Assembly: GCA_017860765.1 (NCBI GenBank) | Contig: JAGDMY010000031.1 | Location: 1 to 10,134 of the forward strand | Length of the DNA stretch: 10,134 nucleotides | Source of the DNA: Chloroflexota bacterium | GTDB lineage: Bacteria; Chloroflexota; Dehalococcoidia; Dehalococcoidales; UBA3254 | Direction of reading: 5' to 3' | Shown here: one piece after another, positions 4,822-10,134 of the stretch | Layout: every line of letters begins with the position of its first letter | Numbering within the stretch: the stretch's first letter is position 1 | Made by a program: the position numbers and the translations under genes | Notes under the pieces: model-generated | Seen by the model: the letters and a program-made list of their open reading frames with translations, nothing else | Database searches by the model: none | Told to the model about the DNA's origin: nothing

Positions 4822-5871
4822 CTAGAGGTTTCCCAGGACCCGGAAGATGCGATTGCTTTTGGGTTTATGCTGGGAGAGGATTATTTCACCGCCATCATAG
4901 GGTTGGGAAAACAGAAGGGGGGCGTTGTTGATGAGGAATTCTTTCATCAATTTGGACGATCTAAGAAAGCGTTTTTCCGGGACTTGAACCGGGGTGGGCA
5001 ATCCCTGAAAGCGGTTGATCCTGGCATCGGACCTGTTCTGGCACACCAGGTCCAACCAGCTGTGAAACTTGAATGTAGACCTGGCAACTTCGGCAGGAGT
5101 CCTGCCGTTTAAAGCTTCTTGAATGCTAAAGTAGTTATAGTGTACCAGCCAGCCGTCCAACACCATCTGGGCGTTGACTTCGAGCTTCAACCGGCTCAGG
5201 ACTTTGTTGCGGGCCCTAAGCATATTATGCCAGTATTCAGCCAGCCGGCCAAAGCCAGGCCTGGTCTCGGAAGAAATATTAAAGATATGAGATACCTCTC
5301 CTCCATAGGCTAACTCGATTCCGGGCGCATAACCCTTCCAATCACCGGTGAAGATGCGTTCGGGGGTCTTGCCAGCTTTGTTGCTGGCGGCTCGCATAAC
5401 AAACGCGATATCGTCGATAGCGCGGCCGTAGGATAGCCTGGTAGCTAACAGGAATTTGGTCTCCATGTCGATGATATCAATTACCCAAAAACTCCTGCCG
5501 GACACTTTTACCGGGTTTTCACTGGCCAGCCAGGTGTCACCCACTCTTATGCTGGTCTTCCCGGCTTCAGCAATGGCCAGCCGGGAAAATCGGTTTACCC
5601 ATTTATCAATCGAAGCTTTGGTCACGAAGCTTCCACAAAGATGGTACATGACTTCAGGAATCGAATTTAGGCTCCGTCCCTCATAATAAGCTCCGACAGC
5701 AGTGGCCACCCGCTCATAGGGTATTCTCATGCCCGGCAGGGCGTTATTATCCGCAAATTTATGCCGGCAGTCCTTGCATTTCCACCTTTGAATGCCTTTG
5801 TAACGCCCGAAACGAATTACATTTTCGGAACCGCATATTTTACAGGTCACTGTCTCCAGGATAATTTTCAA
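4822..5871 (-). CDS. DDE transposase with N-terminal zinc ribbon (IS1/IS6-like)
   Basis: From TTG 5871 the product has 349 residues. The N-terminus holds a zinc ribbon, C10-x2-C13 and C32-x2-C35 (CKICG and CKDCRHKF), like the InsA-type DNA-binding region, followed by a helix-turn-helix-like stretch. The catalytic core matches DDE integrase folds: D112 (in RVGDTWL), D177 (in FTGDWKGY) and E212 (in RLAEYWHN), with D and E 35 positions apart, as in D,D(35)E enzymes. About 85 further residues follow the core. All three acidic residues are present and no frameshift is seen, so it may be active. The start is uncertain: the frame extends to TTG 5922, but GGGAAAGGGAAAG precedes 5871 and places the first Cys near the N-terminus. 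A minus-strand promoter is visible at 5962-5990. Terminal inverted repeats and target duplications could not be recognised, so the ends of the element are unknown. Confidence 0.82.
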   Translation of the reverse strand: MKIILETVTCKICGSENVIRFGRYKGIQRWKCKDCRHKFADNNALPGMRIPYERVATAVGAYYEGRSLNSIPEVMYHLCGSFVTKASIDKWVNRFSRLAIAEAGKTSIRVGDTWLASENPVKVSGRSFWVIDIIDMETKFLLATRLSYGRAIDDIAFVMRAASNKAGKTPERIFTGDWKGYAPGIELAYGGEVSHIFNISSETRPGFGRLAEYWHNMLRARNKVLSRLKLEVNAQMVLDGWLVHYNYFSIQEALNGRTPAEVARSTFKFHSWLDLVCQNRSDARINRFQGLPTPVQVPEKRFLRSSKLMKEFLINNAPLLFSQPYDGGEIILSQHKPKSNRIFRVLGNL

Positions 5872-5961
5872 GGCTTTCCCTTTCCCTCTGCCTGAAGCCG
5901 GGATTAAAGAAGGCAGCGTCAATAATACCCGGCACAGCCAGACTCAACCCGATCAATTGAG

Positions 5962-5990
5962 ATTGTACTACCCGGGTTCCCGGATTTCAA
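5962..5990 (-). promoter_or_regulatory. Promoter of the transposase gene
   Basis: On the minus strand TTGAAA (complement of 5985-5990, five of six) and TACAAT (complement of 5962-5967, five of six) are spaced by 17 bases. The spacer contains the GC-rich palindrome-like CCGGGAACCCGGG (complement of 5970-5982). The predicted start lies near 5955, upstream of both candidate transposase starts. The -35 box is 15 bases from the inverted half-site at 6006-6020. Confidence 0.65.
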
Positions 5991-6005
5991 ATTTAAAGTC
6001 CGAAG

Positions 6006-6074
6006 TGTCTATTTTTGGTTACTGGCGACACAATTCTGAGATGAAAAATGCATTTTAACAACCTAAAGTAGACA
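6006..6074. promoter_or_regulatory. Paired inverted 15-bp half-sites between divergent promoters (element A)
   Basis: TGTCTATTTTTGGTT (6006-6020) and its inverted partner AACCTAAAGTAGACA (6060-6074) agree at 13 of 15 positions when one is reverse-complemented. They are separated by 39 bases. The right half-site lies 17 bases before the TTGACA of the caiB-type gene, and the left one 15 bases from the transposase -35 box. A related pair at 8707-8775 has the same spacing, which argues for a regulator binding site rather than chance. The gap contains a perfect 12-bp palindrome, AAAATGCATTTT (6045-6056). The regulator is not identifiable in this window. Confidence 0.6.
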
Positions 6075-6091
6075 TAAATAATAATTCCGTA

Positions 6092-6119
6092 TTGACAGAA
6101 TAGCCTGGAGGAGTATATT
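6092..6119 (+). promoter_or_regulatory. Promoter of the CaiB/BaiF-type gene
   Basis: A perfect -35 box TTGACA (6092-6097) is followed after 16 bases by TATATT (6114-6119, five of six). The predicted start near 6126 gives a leader of about 40 bases containing GGGAGGAG (6152-6159) before the ATG at 6167. An imperfect inverted repeat, ATTCCG-6-CAGAAT (6084-6101), overlaps the -35 box. Confidence 0.75.
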
Positions 6120-6166
6120 TTCAGAATAACCGCATCTAGAGCTTTTTAATCGGGAGGAGAACGAAT

Positions 6167-7348
6167 ATGCAGGCATTGGAAGGAATAACTGTCCTGGACC
6201 TGGCGAGAGGATATCCGCCGGCCCAGAGCGCTATGTTTCTGGGAGATTTTGGCGCCAGGGTCATCAGGATAGAGTCCCCGGAGGGCAACAAAATGGAAAA
6301 ACAGGCAGGCATAGACCCTCACGATGAGCGTTTTGCCGCCTTTAACAGACTGAACAGGAATAAAGAAAATGTTTTGGTTAATCTGCGCTCGGAAGAGGGA
6401 TTGCAGGTATTTTACCGGCTGGTAAAAAAGGCAGATGTTCTGGTGGAGGGCTTCAGACCCGGGGTGATGAAAGCCCTGAAAGCCGATTATGAGGCCCTCA
6501 AGGTGGTTAATCCCCGGCTGATATACTGTTCGGCGAGCAGCTATGGTTCAAACGGACCCTATGCCCGAATTCCCGGGCATGACCCCTGTAATCTGGGCAT
6601 TGCCGGAGCCCTGAGTATGATAGGACCCCGCAATGGCATCCCGTGCGAACCAAGCAACTATATAGCGGATATGGGCGGAGCAGCTATGCACGGGTTGGCC
6701 GGAATCCTGATTGCCCTGATAGCCCGGGAAAAGACAGGGCAGGGTCAATTTGTCGACATCTCTTACACCGATGGTGCTCTCTCACTGATGGAATATGATA
6801 TCTTTTCCTATTTTTTTAGCGGCCGGGTGCCACGGCGGGGAGAGACCATGTTCACAGGATTTTCGGCCTCGAGCCATGTTTACCAATGTCAGGATGGAGA
6901 ATTTATCGTAATAGCCTGTGGTGAATTTCCTTTCTGGAGGAACCTCTGCCAGGCGCTCGGGAGGGAAGACTTAATCCGCTATCACAGCGCCCCCCTCGAC
7001 CAGCAGGAGCCCGCAATCCAGGAACTGACCACTATCTTTTTGACAAAAAGCAGGGACGAGTGGTGGGACTTCCTCAAGGACAAAGATATTTGTGTGGCCC
7101 CTGTTAAATACATCGATGAAGCCTTAAATGATCCCCAGCTGCTGTACCGGCAAATGGTTTTGACCCTGGATCATCCCGGCCTGGGCAAAGTGAAGCAGCT
7201 CGGTTTTCCCATAAAACTGTCGGATACTCCAGCGCAGGTCAGGAGCCTGGGGAAGATCGTGGGGTCTGACACTCGCGAGATAATGGAGGAATTGGGTTAT
7301 CCCGCGGAGGAAACCCGGCGTCTGATGGAGGGCGGGGCGATTGGCTAA
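6167..7348 (+). CDS. CaiB/BaiF CoA-transferase family protein, AMACR-like
   Basis: This 393-residue protein belongs to the family III CoA transferases, interlocked dimers that move CoA between acids through an aspartyl-CoA intermediate. The same fold also includes alpha-methylacyl-CoA racemases. The opening LEGITVLDLARGYPPAQSAM (4-23), GDFGARVIRIESPEG (26-40), RNKENVLVNLRSEEG (64-78) and GFRPGVM (95-101) are family hallmarks. IPGHDPCNLGIAGALSMIG (135-153) and NYIADMGG (164-171) resemble the racemase pattern, giving H138, D139 and D168 as candidate catalytic residues. E253 in CGEFPFW also fits the racemase side. Transferase versus racemase therefore cannot be settled. ATG 6167 has GGAGG nine bases upstream and a strong promoter. 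Downstream the acyl-CoA dehydrogenase gene converges, with 60 bases between them and no clear terminator. Its job is probably to activate or epimerise a branched or carboxylic substrate for the neighbouring enzymes. Confidence 0.9.
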   Translation: MQALEGITVLDLARGYPPAQSAMFLGDFGARVIRIESPEGNKMEKQAGIDPHDERFAAFNRLNRNKENVLVNLRSEEGLQVFYRLVKKADVLVEGFRPGVMKALKADYEALKVVNPRLIYCSASSYGSNGPYARIPGHDPCNLGIAGALSMIGPRNGIPCEPSNYIADMGGAAMHGLAGILIALIAREKTGQGQFVDISYTDGALSLMEYDIFSYFFSGRVPRRGETMFTGFSASSHVYQCQDGEFIVIACGEFPFWRNLCQALGREDLIRYHSAPLDQQEPAIQELTTIFLTKSRDEWWDFLKDKDICVAPVKYIDEALNDPQLLYRQMVLTLDHPGLGKVKQLGFPIKLSDTPAQVRSLGKIVGSDTREIMEELGYPAEETRRLMEGGAIG

Positions 7349-7408
7349 TCGGAGGCCTGCCCCGATAGTCAGCGTCAGACCAGCAAATACCGCTGTTATC
7401 AATTATAA

Positions 7409-8554
7409 TTAAGGCACGAATTCGCGGCCGATGATATCCCGGGCAATAATTAGCTTCATTACTCCCGCGGTACCGTCACCGATCTCCTGCCCTATCGTAT
7501 CTCTTAATCTCTGTTCAAAAGGCAGGTCTTTACTATAGCCATAATGCCCGTGTGTCAGCAGACATTCATGAATGATCTCGGTGGCTATCATAGGGCACCA
7601 CCATTTGGCCATGGCCGATTCCCGGGTATGCCTTTGTCCCCGGTCTTTCATCCAGAGAGTCCGGTAGCACAGCCATCTGCCTAATTCCAGATAGGTCGCC
7701 GCCTCAGCTAATTTAAAAGAGACTCCCTGAAAGTTGGCAATAGGTTTGCCGAATTGGACACGCCCTTTTACATATTCGCAGGTCTCATCCAGGGATATCG
7801 CGGCCTTAGCCAGGGCCATAAGCGATAAAAAGGCCCGGTTATAATCGAAATTCCGCATCATTTCCAGAAAACCTTTTCCTTCTTCATCTCCCAGGAGATA
7901 CCTCTTATGCAGCCGGACATCTTCGAAGGATACAATTCCGGCGCAGGTAGACTCAACCCCCATATCGTCGATGCGGGTTTTCGTCACTCCAGGCAGGTCC
8001 ATCGGGACCAGAAAAGCGGTAATCCGTTTAGAGCCCATACTGGTTTTAGCCAGAACGATCGCTGAATCTCCCAGGAAACCAAAAGAGACCCGATTTTTTT
8101 CACCATTGAGTATATAATAGTCGCCATCTTTGCGGGCCAGCATTTTTAAATTGCCGAGGTCCGATCCGGCATCGGCCTCGGTAGCTGCTACCAATACCAT
8201 TTTCTCGCCCCGCGCCATAGCGGGCAGCCATTCAGCCTTGACTTCATCAGTGGCCAGTCGCAGAAAATCAGCCTGACCCAGAGTATAAGAAATCACCAGA
8301 GCAGCGTCCTCAGCATATTTAGCCATCTCCTCAACGACCACACCCGCGGTAACTGCATCCTGAGGCTGCCCACCGTATTTTTCCGGAATATTCAGTCCCA
8401 ACAGGCCCATATCTGCAATCTTCCTGATTAGCTCCCGAGGAACGGTGAGGGCCTTGACTCTCTCTTTGTATCCCGGGACAACCTCCTTTATGGCAAAATC
8501 ATGAACCATCTTGCGCATCATTATCTGGTCTTCCGAAAAAGAAAAATCTAACAT
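7409..8554 (-). CDS. Acyl-CoA dehydrogenase family flavoprotein
   Basis: This 381-residue protein has the usual acyl-CoA dehydrogenase length and layout: N-terminal helices (FSFSEDQIMMRKMVHDF, 4-20), IPEKYGG (56-62), the FAD and substrate region ATEADAGSDLGNLK (124-137), GEKNRVSFG (151-159), GRVQFGKPIANFQ (264-276) and the C-terminal helical domain. The enzymes remove two hydrogens from the alpha and beta carbons of an acyl-CoA and pass electrons to ETF. The position of the common catalytic Glu, normally in IYEGT, reads IGDGT here, with D360. The alternative Glu site used by isovaleryl- or long-chain-type enzymes reads N (FDYNRA, 236-241). Asp may act as the base, or the reaction may differ, for example on alicyclic or aromatic-derived acyl-CoAs. 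The start ATG 8554 has AAGGAG (complement of 8566-8571) 11 bases upstream. It is divergent from the NPD-like gene. Confidence 0.93.
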   Translation of the reverse strand: MLDFSFSEDQIMMRKMVHDFAIKEVVPGYKERVKALTVPRELIRKIADMGLLGLNIPEKYGGQPQDAVTAGVVVEEMAKYAEDAALVISYTLGQADFLRLATDEVKAEWLPAMARGEKMVLVAATEADAGSDLGNLKMLARKDGDYYILNGEKNRVSFGFLGDSAIVLAKTSMGSKRITAFLVPMDLPGVTKTRIDDMGVESTCAGIVSFEDVRLHKRYLLGDEEGKGFLEMMRNFDYNRAFLSLMALAKAAISLDETCEYVKGRVQFGKPIANFQGVSFKLAEAATYLELGRWLCYRTLWMKDRGQRHTRESAMAKWWCPMIATEIIHECLLTHGHYGYSKDLPFEQRLRDTIGQEIGDGTAGVMKLIIARDIIGREFVP

Positions 8555-8635
8555 CGTAGCTAAATCTCCTTCCCTATCCGAATATTTTTAATCTAAGTCT
8601 ATTGACCATTCCGCCAGTAAATGTTAAAATTTGAA

Positions 8636-8647
8636 GTCATATATGAC
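8636..8647. promoter_or_regulatory. Perfect 12-bp palindrome, possible operator for the dehydrogenase gene
   Basis: GTCATATATGAC is a perfect inverted repeat in the 305-base gap between the divergent genes. If the dehydrogenase gene starts transcription near 8654 on the minus strand, the palindrome lies just inside the transcript, a usual place for a repressor site. No regulator gene is nearby. Confidence 0.35.
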
Positions 8648-8660
8648 ATCGCATATACTG

Positions 8661-8690
8661 AAGGTACACTCAACCGCCCAATTTGTCAAT
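8661..8690 (-). promoter_or_regulatory. Possible promoter of the acyl-CoA dehydrogenase gene
   Basis: A perfect minus-strand TTGACA (complement of 8685-8690) lies 16 bases from the half-site at 8707-8721. The matching -10 box is poor: TACCTT (complement of 8661-8666, three of six) after 18 bases. Such a promoter could depend on an activator. The leader would be about 100 bases. Confidence 0.35.
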
Positions 8691-8706
8691 CTGGCATTAT
8701 TTATTC

Positions 8707-8775
8707 TATCCATTTTTGGGTGTTATTTTCACATAACTGGCTTAAAATAGTATATTTACAAACCAAAAGTATACA
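8707..8775. promoter_or_regulatory. Paired inverted half-sites between divergent promoters (element B)
   Basis: TATCCATTTTTGGGT (8707-8721) and AACCAAAAGTATACA (8761-8775) are inverted relative to each other and agree at 10 of 15 positions. They are again 39 bases apart. The right half-site matches that of element A at 13 of 15 positions and sits 17 bases before TTGACA, exactly as in element A. The left half-site lies 16 bases from a minus-strand TTGACA. This appears to be the same regulator target, here serving the dehydrogenase and NPD-like genes. Confidence 0.55.
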
Positions 8776-8792
8776 TCGGCTAACGCAACAGT

Positions 8793-8821
8793 TTGACAGG
8801 GGTTGGGATGAAAGTTATATA
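8793..8821 (+). promoter_or_regulatory. Promoter of the NPD-like gene
   Basis: A perfect -35 box TTGACA (8793-8798) is followed after 17 bases by TATATA (8816-8821, four of six). The predicted start near 8828 leaves a short leader with AAGGAG (8848-8853) six bases before ATG 8860. Confidence 0.65.
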
Positions 8822-8859
8822 TCTTAACAGGAATTAGTAAAAGAAACAAGGAGAAAAAA

Positions 8860-9999
8860 ATGGCGAAAAAGAACCTTCTTCATACCGAGTTGTGTGATAT
8901 GCTGGGGATAAAATATCCCATCGTGGCATCCGGAATGGGATTCGTCTCCGGGCCGGCTCTGGCTGCGGCGGTCTCCAATGCCGGCGGGCTGGGCGTCCTG
9001 GGCGTAGCCGGATTCCATATCGATGAGCTGCGCATGTTGATCAGACGGACCAAAGACCTCACCAATAAACCCTTTGGCGTGGATGTCCCGATGCCCCCTC
9101 AGCTGGAACTCTTTCCTCCGGATTCCACCGAGGATTCTTTAAGGGCTGGATTGCCGGCGGAAGCGGTCGCTTTTACCAAACAGTTTGCCCAGGAGGAAGG
9201 GATACCTATCAAGAGAGGCGATCCCGCACTGCAGGTATTCTCCATTGAATATACCCGGCAAGCTTTTAAAATTGCTCTGGAAGAGAAAATCCCGATTTTT
9301 GTTTCTGCGGTCGGTGATCCGTCCTGGGCTGTCCCGCAGGCACATGCTCAGGGGATGAAAGTTATGTCCTGTATCGGCCTGGTCCGGCAGGCTAAACGTC
9401 TGGCCGGGAACGGGGTAGATATCATTATTGCCCAGGGCACCGAAGCCGGCGGTCATACCGGAAGGATCGGCACTATGCCTCTGGTCCCCCAGGTGGTGGA
9501 TGCTATTCGACCGACGCCGGTAATCGCTGCAGGGGGCATTGGTGATGGCAGAGGCGTGGCGGCGGCCCTGGCGCTGGGCGCCATTGGTGCCTGGATAGGG
9601 ACGGCTTTCGTCGCTACTAAAGAGTCCTGCCTGGAGACCATCGAACTGGGCCATATGTCCCAATGGGAAGTGGATGTCTGGAAACAGAAAATAATGGCCG
9701 CCACCGAGGACGATACGGTAATATCCAGGACTCTCACCGGAAAAACTTTGCGGATGATTAAGAACAAGTTCCAGGGTAACTGGGAGAAAAAGAATGGCCC
9801 CATCCTGAAGACACCTATCCAAAACTTGCTATTGGCGGATCTGATGGAGGGCGTTAGAACGGCTAAAATGCCCGACTATTATTTCCCCGTCGGCGGACAG
9901 ATTTCAGGCATGCTGAAAGAAATCAAACCGGCCGCCCAGCTGGTTGACGAACTGGTAGAGGGCGCCACCAAGGTCCTGGAGAAACTCTGCAAGGCATAG
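8860..9999 (+). CDS. Nitronate monooxygenase / 2-nitropropane dioxygenase-like FMN protein
   Basis: This 379-residue protein is an FMN-binding TIM barrel of the NPD family, which includes nitronate monooxygenases and the enoyl reductase FabK. Visible hallmarks are YPIVASGMGFVSGPALAAAV (19-38), NAGGLGVLG (40-48), AQGTEAGGHTG (191-201) with the catalytic-type H199, and AAGGIGDGRG (223-232) followed by ALGAIGAWIGTAF (238-250), which holds the FMN phosphate. The C-terminal part (about 255-345) is a helical lid. The segment between about 76 and 130 is longer than in minimal family members. In a CoA-enzyme setting it may reduce or oxidise an acyl-CoA or an unsaturated intermediate rather than act on nitronates, but the sequence cannot decide this. 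The start has AAGGAG six bases upstream. The enoyl-CoA hydratase gene follows 25 bases after the stop, so both are probably one operon under element B. Confidence 0.88.
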   Translation: MAKKNLLHTELCDMLGIKYPIVASGMGFVSGPALAAAVSNAGGLGVLGVAGFHIDELRMLIRRTKDLTNKPFGVDVPMPPQLELFPPDSTEDSLRAGLPAEAVAFTKQFAQEEGIPIKRGDPALQVFSIEYTRQAFKIALEEKIPIFVSAVGDPSWAVPQAHAQGMKVMSCIGLVRQAKRLAGNGVDIIIAQGTEAGGHTGRIGTMPLVPQVVDAIRPTPVIAAGGIGDGRGVAAALALGAIGAWIGTAFVATKESCLETIELGHMSQWEVDVWKQKIMAATEDDTVISRTLTGKTLRMIKNKFQGNWEKKNGPILKTPIQNLLLADLMEGVRTAKMPDYYFPVGGQISGMLKEIKPAAQLVDELVEGATKVLEKLCKA

Positions 10000-10024: not shown

Positions 10025-10134
10025 ATGAGCTACGAAGCAATTATTTATCAGAAAAAAGGTCCGGTGGCCAAAATTACTCTAAATCGACCGAAAGCCATGA
10101 ACTCTCTGACCTGGACGATGGCCCGGGAGATAGC
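10025..10134 (+). CDS. Enoyl-CoA hydratase/isomerase (crotonase) family, N-terminal part
   Basis: ATG 10025 follows GGGAG (10015-10019) by five bases and runs off the right edge after 36 codons. The start MSYEAIIYQKKGPVAKI and then TLNRPKAMNSLT (18-29) are the opening strands of crotonase-fold enzymes, where the NRP-x-x-x-NS pattern is highly conserved. The family hydrates trans-2-enoyl-CoA in beta-oxidation but also includes isomerases, decarboxylases and ring-opening hydrolases. The oxyanion-hole and catalytic residues are outside the window, so the specific reaction is open. It lies 25 bases after the NPD-like gene on the same strand and should share its promoter. Confidence 0.88.
   Translation, partial: MSYEAIIYQKKGPVAKITLNRPKAMNSLTWTMAREI

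Follow-up and report, generated by a model that had tools for sequence, protein, structure and literature searches.

Two inverted-site elements in a Chloroflexota contig as candidate copies of one operator for divergent promoters of acyl-CoA genes

Do two intergenic regions next to acyl-CoA genes on a single contig of an uncultured Chloroflexota bacterium carry one and the same regulatory element? The question is raised by a stretch of 10,134 nucleotides (hereafter the window) covering positions 1 to 10,134 of contig JAGDMY010000031.1 (assembly GCA_017860765.1; Dehalococcoidia, Dehalococcoidales). The region upstream of a gene for a CaiB-type CoA-transferase and the region between divergent genes for an acyl-CoA dehydrogenase and a nitronate monooxygenase (NMO)/FabK-like flavoprotein harbor elements A and B, respectively, each composed of two inverted 15-base half-sites (Table 1). 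An original prediction, made from the letters of the window, held that A and B form one two-sided module coordinating these genes. Our analysis supports, with a probability of roughly 0.7, the interpretation that A and B are two instances of the same operator, through which a single transcription factor would jointly control the acyl-CoA genes. To our knowledge, little is known about gene regulation in uncultured Dehalococcoidia, and narrow literature searches on this subject found no paper.

The four half-sites conform to a consensus close to TGTMTAYTTTWGGTT and are all fitted by the pattern TRTMYAYTTTWGGKT, with no internal dyad discernible by eye; their centers are 54 bases apart in each element. 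Pairwise, they agree at 10-13 of 15 positions, and a weight matrix assigns them 17.4-21.1 bits, with at most 10.7 bits in the rest of the window. Over the full length A and B are identical at 42 of 69 positions, and the distribution of this likeness supports an operator: the same-side half-sites (12/15 and 13/15) are far more alike than the 39-base interiors (17/39; shuffle mean 11.0, p ~0.02) or the outer flanks (3/23 on the left, 3/17 in the right spacer). The coordinates, the inverted arrangement and the 39-base gap given in the original prediction proved exact for both elements. Its local matches (9/10 in CYATTTTTGG and 16/20 between 6056-6075 and 8757-8776) were likewise correct on reading the sequence.

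The likeness was weighed against chance by a quartet search, in which two inverted 15-mers were set in each intergenic region (5923-6166 and 8555-8859) in all placements with a common gap of 10-80 bases and scored by the matches summed over the six half-site pairs; 1000 dinucleotide-shuffled region pairs provided the null. The two regions had been picked because of the finding itself, while placement and gap were left free. The optimum (score 71, gap 39, starts at 6006 and 8707) coincided with the placement claimed beforehand, and none of the 1000 shuffles reached this score (mean 51.7, standard deviation 1.87, maximum 61). The sequence feature formed by A and B together is real.

Each half-site adjoins one of four predicted promoters. 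Their -35 boxes lie, as had been claimed, 17 bases from the right half-site in both elements and 15 bases from the left half-site of A; on the left of B the distance is 17, not the "15 or 16" bases originally given. The chance of a -35 hexamer with at least 5/6 consensus bases at gaps of 15-17 amounts to 0.015-0.020 per flank (product ~1e-7), as estimated from mononucleotide shuffles with the gap range set after seeing the data. The predicted -35 box is a perfect TTGACA at every promoter but the one facing the transposase-like ORF, and the CaiB promoter as a whole departs from consensus at one position in 12. Counted from predicted (unmapped) starts, assumed to lie about seven bases past the -10 box, the half-site centers fall at about -58 to -60 at all four promoters. 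A general promoter scan returned 11 sites in 5700-9000, as compared to 4.3 +/- 2.2 in shuffles. The location of the predicted promoters, flanking acyl-CoA genes, is also in support of an operator. Judged from sequence, this geometry strongly suggests an operator shared by the four predicted promoters.

Table 1. Elements, half-sites, predicted promoters and adjoining genes in the window
Feature	Position	Strand	Details
Element A	6006-6074		two inverted 15-base half-sites, gap 39
Element B	8707-8775		two inverted 15-base half-sites, gap 39
Left half-site of A	6006..6020	+	TGTCTATTTTTGGTT; inverted-repeat listing, weight-matrix and quartet search
Right half-site of A	6060..6074	-	TGTCTACTTTAGGTT (minus strand); inverted-repeat listing, weight-matrix and quartet search
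Left half-site of B	8707..8721	+	TATCCATTTTTGGGT; weakest copy; weight-matrix and quartet search
Right half-site of B	8761..8775	-	TGTATACTTTTGGTT (minus strand); weight-matrix and quartet search
Predicted CaiB promoter	6092..6119	+	TTGACA-16-TATATT (-10: 5/6); -35 17 bases from A right half-site
Predicted promoter towards transposase-like ORF	5962..5990	-	TTGAAA-17-TACAAT (-10: 5/6); -35 15 bases from A left half-site
Predicted NMO/FabK-like promoter	8793..8821	+	TTGACA-17-TATATA (-10: 4/6); -35 17 bases from B right half-site
Predicted acyl-CoA dehydrogenase promoter	8661..8689	-	TTGACA-17-TACCTT (-10: 3/6); -35 17 bases from B left half-site
CaiB/BaiF-type class III CoA-transferase	6167..7348	+	PF02515 1.6e-98
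Acyl-CoA dehydrogenase	7409..8554	-	best NCBIfam match cyclohexanecarboxyl-CoA dehydrogenase, under its cut-off
Nitronate monooxygenase/FabK-like flavoprotein	8860..9999	+	PF03060 6.7e-65; FabK model under its cut-off
Enoyl-CoA hydratase-like gene, 5' part, cut by window end	10025..10134	+	67% over 36 residues to hydratase-like ORF adjoining CaiB in G343
Transposase-like open reading frame (ORF), downstream of minus-strand promoter of A	4822..5922	-	profile matches (Pfam, NCBIfam)

The element is best taken as a site in DNA and not an RNA stem. While A folds better than its own shuffles (z -2.9 and -2.4), B is not clearly better folded (z -1.2 and -1.1), and its arms are unpaired with each other in predicted folds although the half-site motif persists, a behavior expected of a protein site. 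A cis-acting RNA structure was rejected, since the stem is not maintained in B and no Rfam family matched at gathering thresholds.

In the mechanism that we favor, each operator would present two inverted asymmetric sites between two divergent sigma-70-type promoters, and one factor would bind each asymmetric half-site and act on the adjoining promoter. This factor would most likely be an activator that, in the class I manner, contacts RNA polymerase from upstream at both promoters. It is probably encoded outside the window; no regulator gene was recognized among the window genes by Pfam (seven proteins scanned, with PcrA and the partial hydratase left out) and NCBIfam searches. The common 39-base gap, together with the little likeness of the interiors, hints at an interaction between the two bound subunits, which would sit on the same helical face at a distance of five turns and which this exact spacing may allow to touch or loop; two copies are thin support. 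The outcome would be joint control of CaiB, the acyl-CoA dehydrogenase and the NMO/FabK-like gene with the hydratase.

Several observations, within the window and among relatives, weigh against this shared operator. The two-sided arrangement put forward in the original prediction is well supported, and the positions of the CaiB, dehydrogenase and NMO/FabK-like genes imply their coordination; the fourth promoter, however, faces the transposase-like ORF. The general promoter scan contained both A promoters and neither B promoter. At the dehydrogenase promoter the -10 box is poor (just 3/6), which could also be compatible with an activated promoter, and the preference for activation over repression is drawn from position alone. 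The arms of A's own dyad match at 13/15 and those of B at 10/15, and the inverted-repeat listing of the window has the repeat of A, not that of B. In a scan for divergent -35 pairs with inverted sites over 1.73 Mb of partly redundant loci, A ranked first at 13/15, followed by four pairs at 11/15 and 30 pairs at 10/15, of which B may be one, although it was not among the matches listed. The dyad of B alone is unremarkable, so that the case depends on A and B jointly; just two copies of the module are known.

Conservation was assessed at three taxonomic levels, with 156 genomes of the order, 393 of the class and 400 of the phylum; these sets overlap, and the two larger ones are samples. A pattern scan for the complete module, allowing up to 3 mismatches and no gap other than 39, had no match in the 156 order genomes or the 400 phylum genomes. 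The only match, in 1 of the 393 class genomes (G246, L087:1501-1569), sits between methylase-like and integrase-like ORFs (by eye), away from acyl-CoA genes; we have taken it as chance, a recombination site being another possibility. The exact degenerate pattern of half-site plus -35 box was also absent from all 156 order genomes. A sequence-only model of A and B, run in both orientations with strict filters, matched in 22 of them at E up to 1 (best 0.034). These matches were all partial and scored at most 15.4 bits, as opposed to 48-50 for the window's own A and B, and are therefore chance-like; none had a convincing E-value. Finally, a weight-matrix pair scan with gaps of 35-43 over 1.55 Mb (the window and loci L001-L097, which include 80 of the 133 loci with NMO-like relatives; best identity there 52%) recovered just the window's two pairs and the L087 match. 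Viral contigs gave no match to a pattern fitting A but not B, and no CaiB or dehydrogenase relative. The single plasmid match (116 bases) falls inside the coding part of CaiB and is irrelevant to A and B.

Of the relatives with orthologues, the nearest to be found was G343, whose CaiB is 69% identical (among the 393 class genomes) and whose NMO-like protein is 72% identical (among the 156 order genomes). Its PcrA is just 64% identical, indicating that G343 is not close to the window's organism. Contig C65 of this genome (L100-L104), on which these relatives of CaiB and of the NMO-like gene are found, bears a large group of ORFs that by eye resemble several CoA-transferases, dehydrogenases and hydratases and, at 36846-40999, subunits of ATP-dependent benzoyl-CoA reductase, giving it the look of a gene cluster for aromatic or alicyclic acids. 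On it, CaiB and a hydratase-like ORF are transcribed divergently, in a gene order unlike that of the window. The region between them contains TTGACA-18-TATAAT (by eye) and no half-site of at least 12 bits, and the model of A and B had no match in 97 kb of C65. The conservation of the blocks upstream of orthologous genes, to be expected from the original prediction, is thus absent in G343, where gene order differs, just as neither the module nor the half-site with its -35 box was found in the order genomes. The negative scans are evidence against a broad regulon, though not against a local function; at the least, the module is not widespread, and it may be confined to a lineage outside the genomes examined.

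Given that A and B are a real pair, could their sites serve another purpose? As repressor operators, they would be bridged by a dimer or tetramer, with a loop of about five turns shutting both promoters until an acyl-CoA or a carboxylic acid releases it. The gap fixed at 39 bases in both elements and the three perfect -35 boxes are in line with repression, and the CaiB promoter, at 11/12 of consensus, may do without an activator; however, the half-sites are placed ahead of the -35 boxes and leave both hexamers free, and DNA loops of ~54 bases are stiff. We regard repression as possible, if unlikely. Duplication, that is, descent of A and B from one ancestral divergent promoter region with a likeness reflecting this history and not present binding, is improbable. 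The 42/69 overall identity and the interiors (17/39 against 11.0 expected) would agree with it, but the likeness is centered on the half-sites and the right -35 box with the outer flanks unlike, and the inverted symmetry within each element is left unexplained. Even more improbable is a mobile origin, in which A and B would be miniature transposable elements bounded by terminal inverted repeats and possibly mobilized by the transposase-like ORF adjoining A. Despite the inverted ends, no target-site duplication is seen by eye at 6006/6074 or 8707/8775, no inverted repeats were detected around this ORF (4822-5922) at the sensitivity used, further pairs were limited to the single class genome, and the -35 spacing would go unexplained; a miniature element or insertion-sequence end was rejected for want of such a duplication and of copies in the 156 order genomes. 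Chance likeness of AT-rich intergenic DNA (GC 0.39 and 0.33), to which the 10/15 dyad of B might point, can practically be dismissed in view of the shuffles, none of which was as good with placement and gap free.

The ten-kb window contains genes for a PcrA helicase, an FMN reductase, a glyoxalase-like protein and YajC, followed by the transposase-like ORF, CaiB, the dehydrogenase, the NMO/FabK-like protein and the partial hydratase. Across the predicted CaiB promoter runs a 16-base direct repeat (6090-6105 and 6116-6131, 81% identical, 26 apart). The best curated match of the dehydrogenase (7409-8554, minus strand) is cyclohexanecarboxyl-CoA dehydrogenase, at 376 bits with a cut-off of 575, which gives a hint of alicyclic acid breakdown. 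The IS6/IS1-type profile matches of the transposase-like ORF are below their cut-offs, and an NCBIfam zinc-ribbon domain is above its own; the longest homologues of this ORF (36-37% identical, one with an internal stop) occur in 2 of the 10 related genomes searched. Among the 120 matches listed for each protein, the minority of relatives with an organism name belong to Dehalococcoidia, Dehalococcoidales or Chloroflexota for both CaiB (53-54% identity) and PcrA (69-75%); the CaiB listing also includes relatives at 74-81% (jgi and ena sources). PcrA was matched in 126 of the 156 genomes from the order of G343 (E up to 1e-200), with a best identity of 73-74%. These matches place the window close to the Dehalococcoidales within the Chloroflexota. 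A PcrA (629-2815) relative with 87% identity over 84% of the query is located on a 489,652-base public contig (P0178), so public data hold a closer relative than the order genomes searched.

A more ambitious form of the activator model, which we consider doubtful, would see here a hitherto undescribed regulator governing the breakdown of alicyclic or aromatic acyl-CoA compounds in uncultured Dehalococcoidia-type Chloroflexota, with two inverted sites five turns apart and a short loop driving both divergent promoters from -35 boxes about 17 bases off.

How does the proposed operator compare with known systems? AraC/XylS proteins typically bind asymmetric 15-mers that contain two boxes, according to a published account (PMC4514859) giving half-sites for AraC (TAGC-N7-TCCATA), SoxS (GCAC-N7-TAAA), Rob (GCAC-N7-CAA) and XylS (TGCA-N6-GGNTA). 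The sites of A and B may be comparable: they are asymmetric, ~15 bases long and upstream of a -35 box, and two boxes roughly ten bases from each other (approximately TGTM-N7-GGTT) can be made out by eye. AraC can also loop DNA. On the other hand, AraC/XylS operators are consecutive direct repeats, the nearer of which abuts or overlaps the -35 box, whereas here each promoter has a single site, 15-17 bases from the -35 box, and the sites are inverted pairwise across a gap of 39. No AraC gene was found among the seven window proteins scanned, and an AraC-type helix-turn-helix domain (PF12833) occurs in 1 of 10 related genomes, namely G343; the AraC/XylS-like site is an analogy only. In class I activation by CRP-like proteins the site is near -61, similar to the position calculated here for the half-site centers (about -58 to -60 relative to the predicted starts); the sites of A and B differ in having no obvious internal dyad. 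In LysR-type divergent regulatory regions, too, the promoters point away from each other and a site lies near -60, but no regulator gene adjoins A or B, which are flanked by the transposase-like, CaiB, dehydrogenase and NMO/FabK-like genes; LysR-type helix-turn-helix domains are above cut-off in 2 of the 10 related genomes. Given the absence of consecutive direct repeats and the few genomes with either type of domain, we leave the regulator family unnamed. Overall, A and B would represent a new instance of a familiar arrangement, one regulator for several promoters, in the form of a precise operator (four sites in a fixed geometry) for genes of acyl-CoA catabolism.

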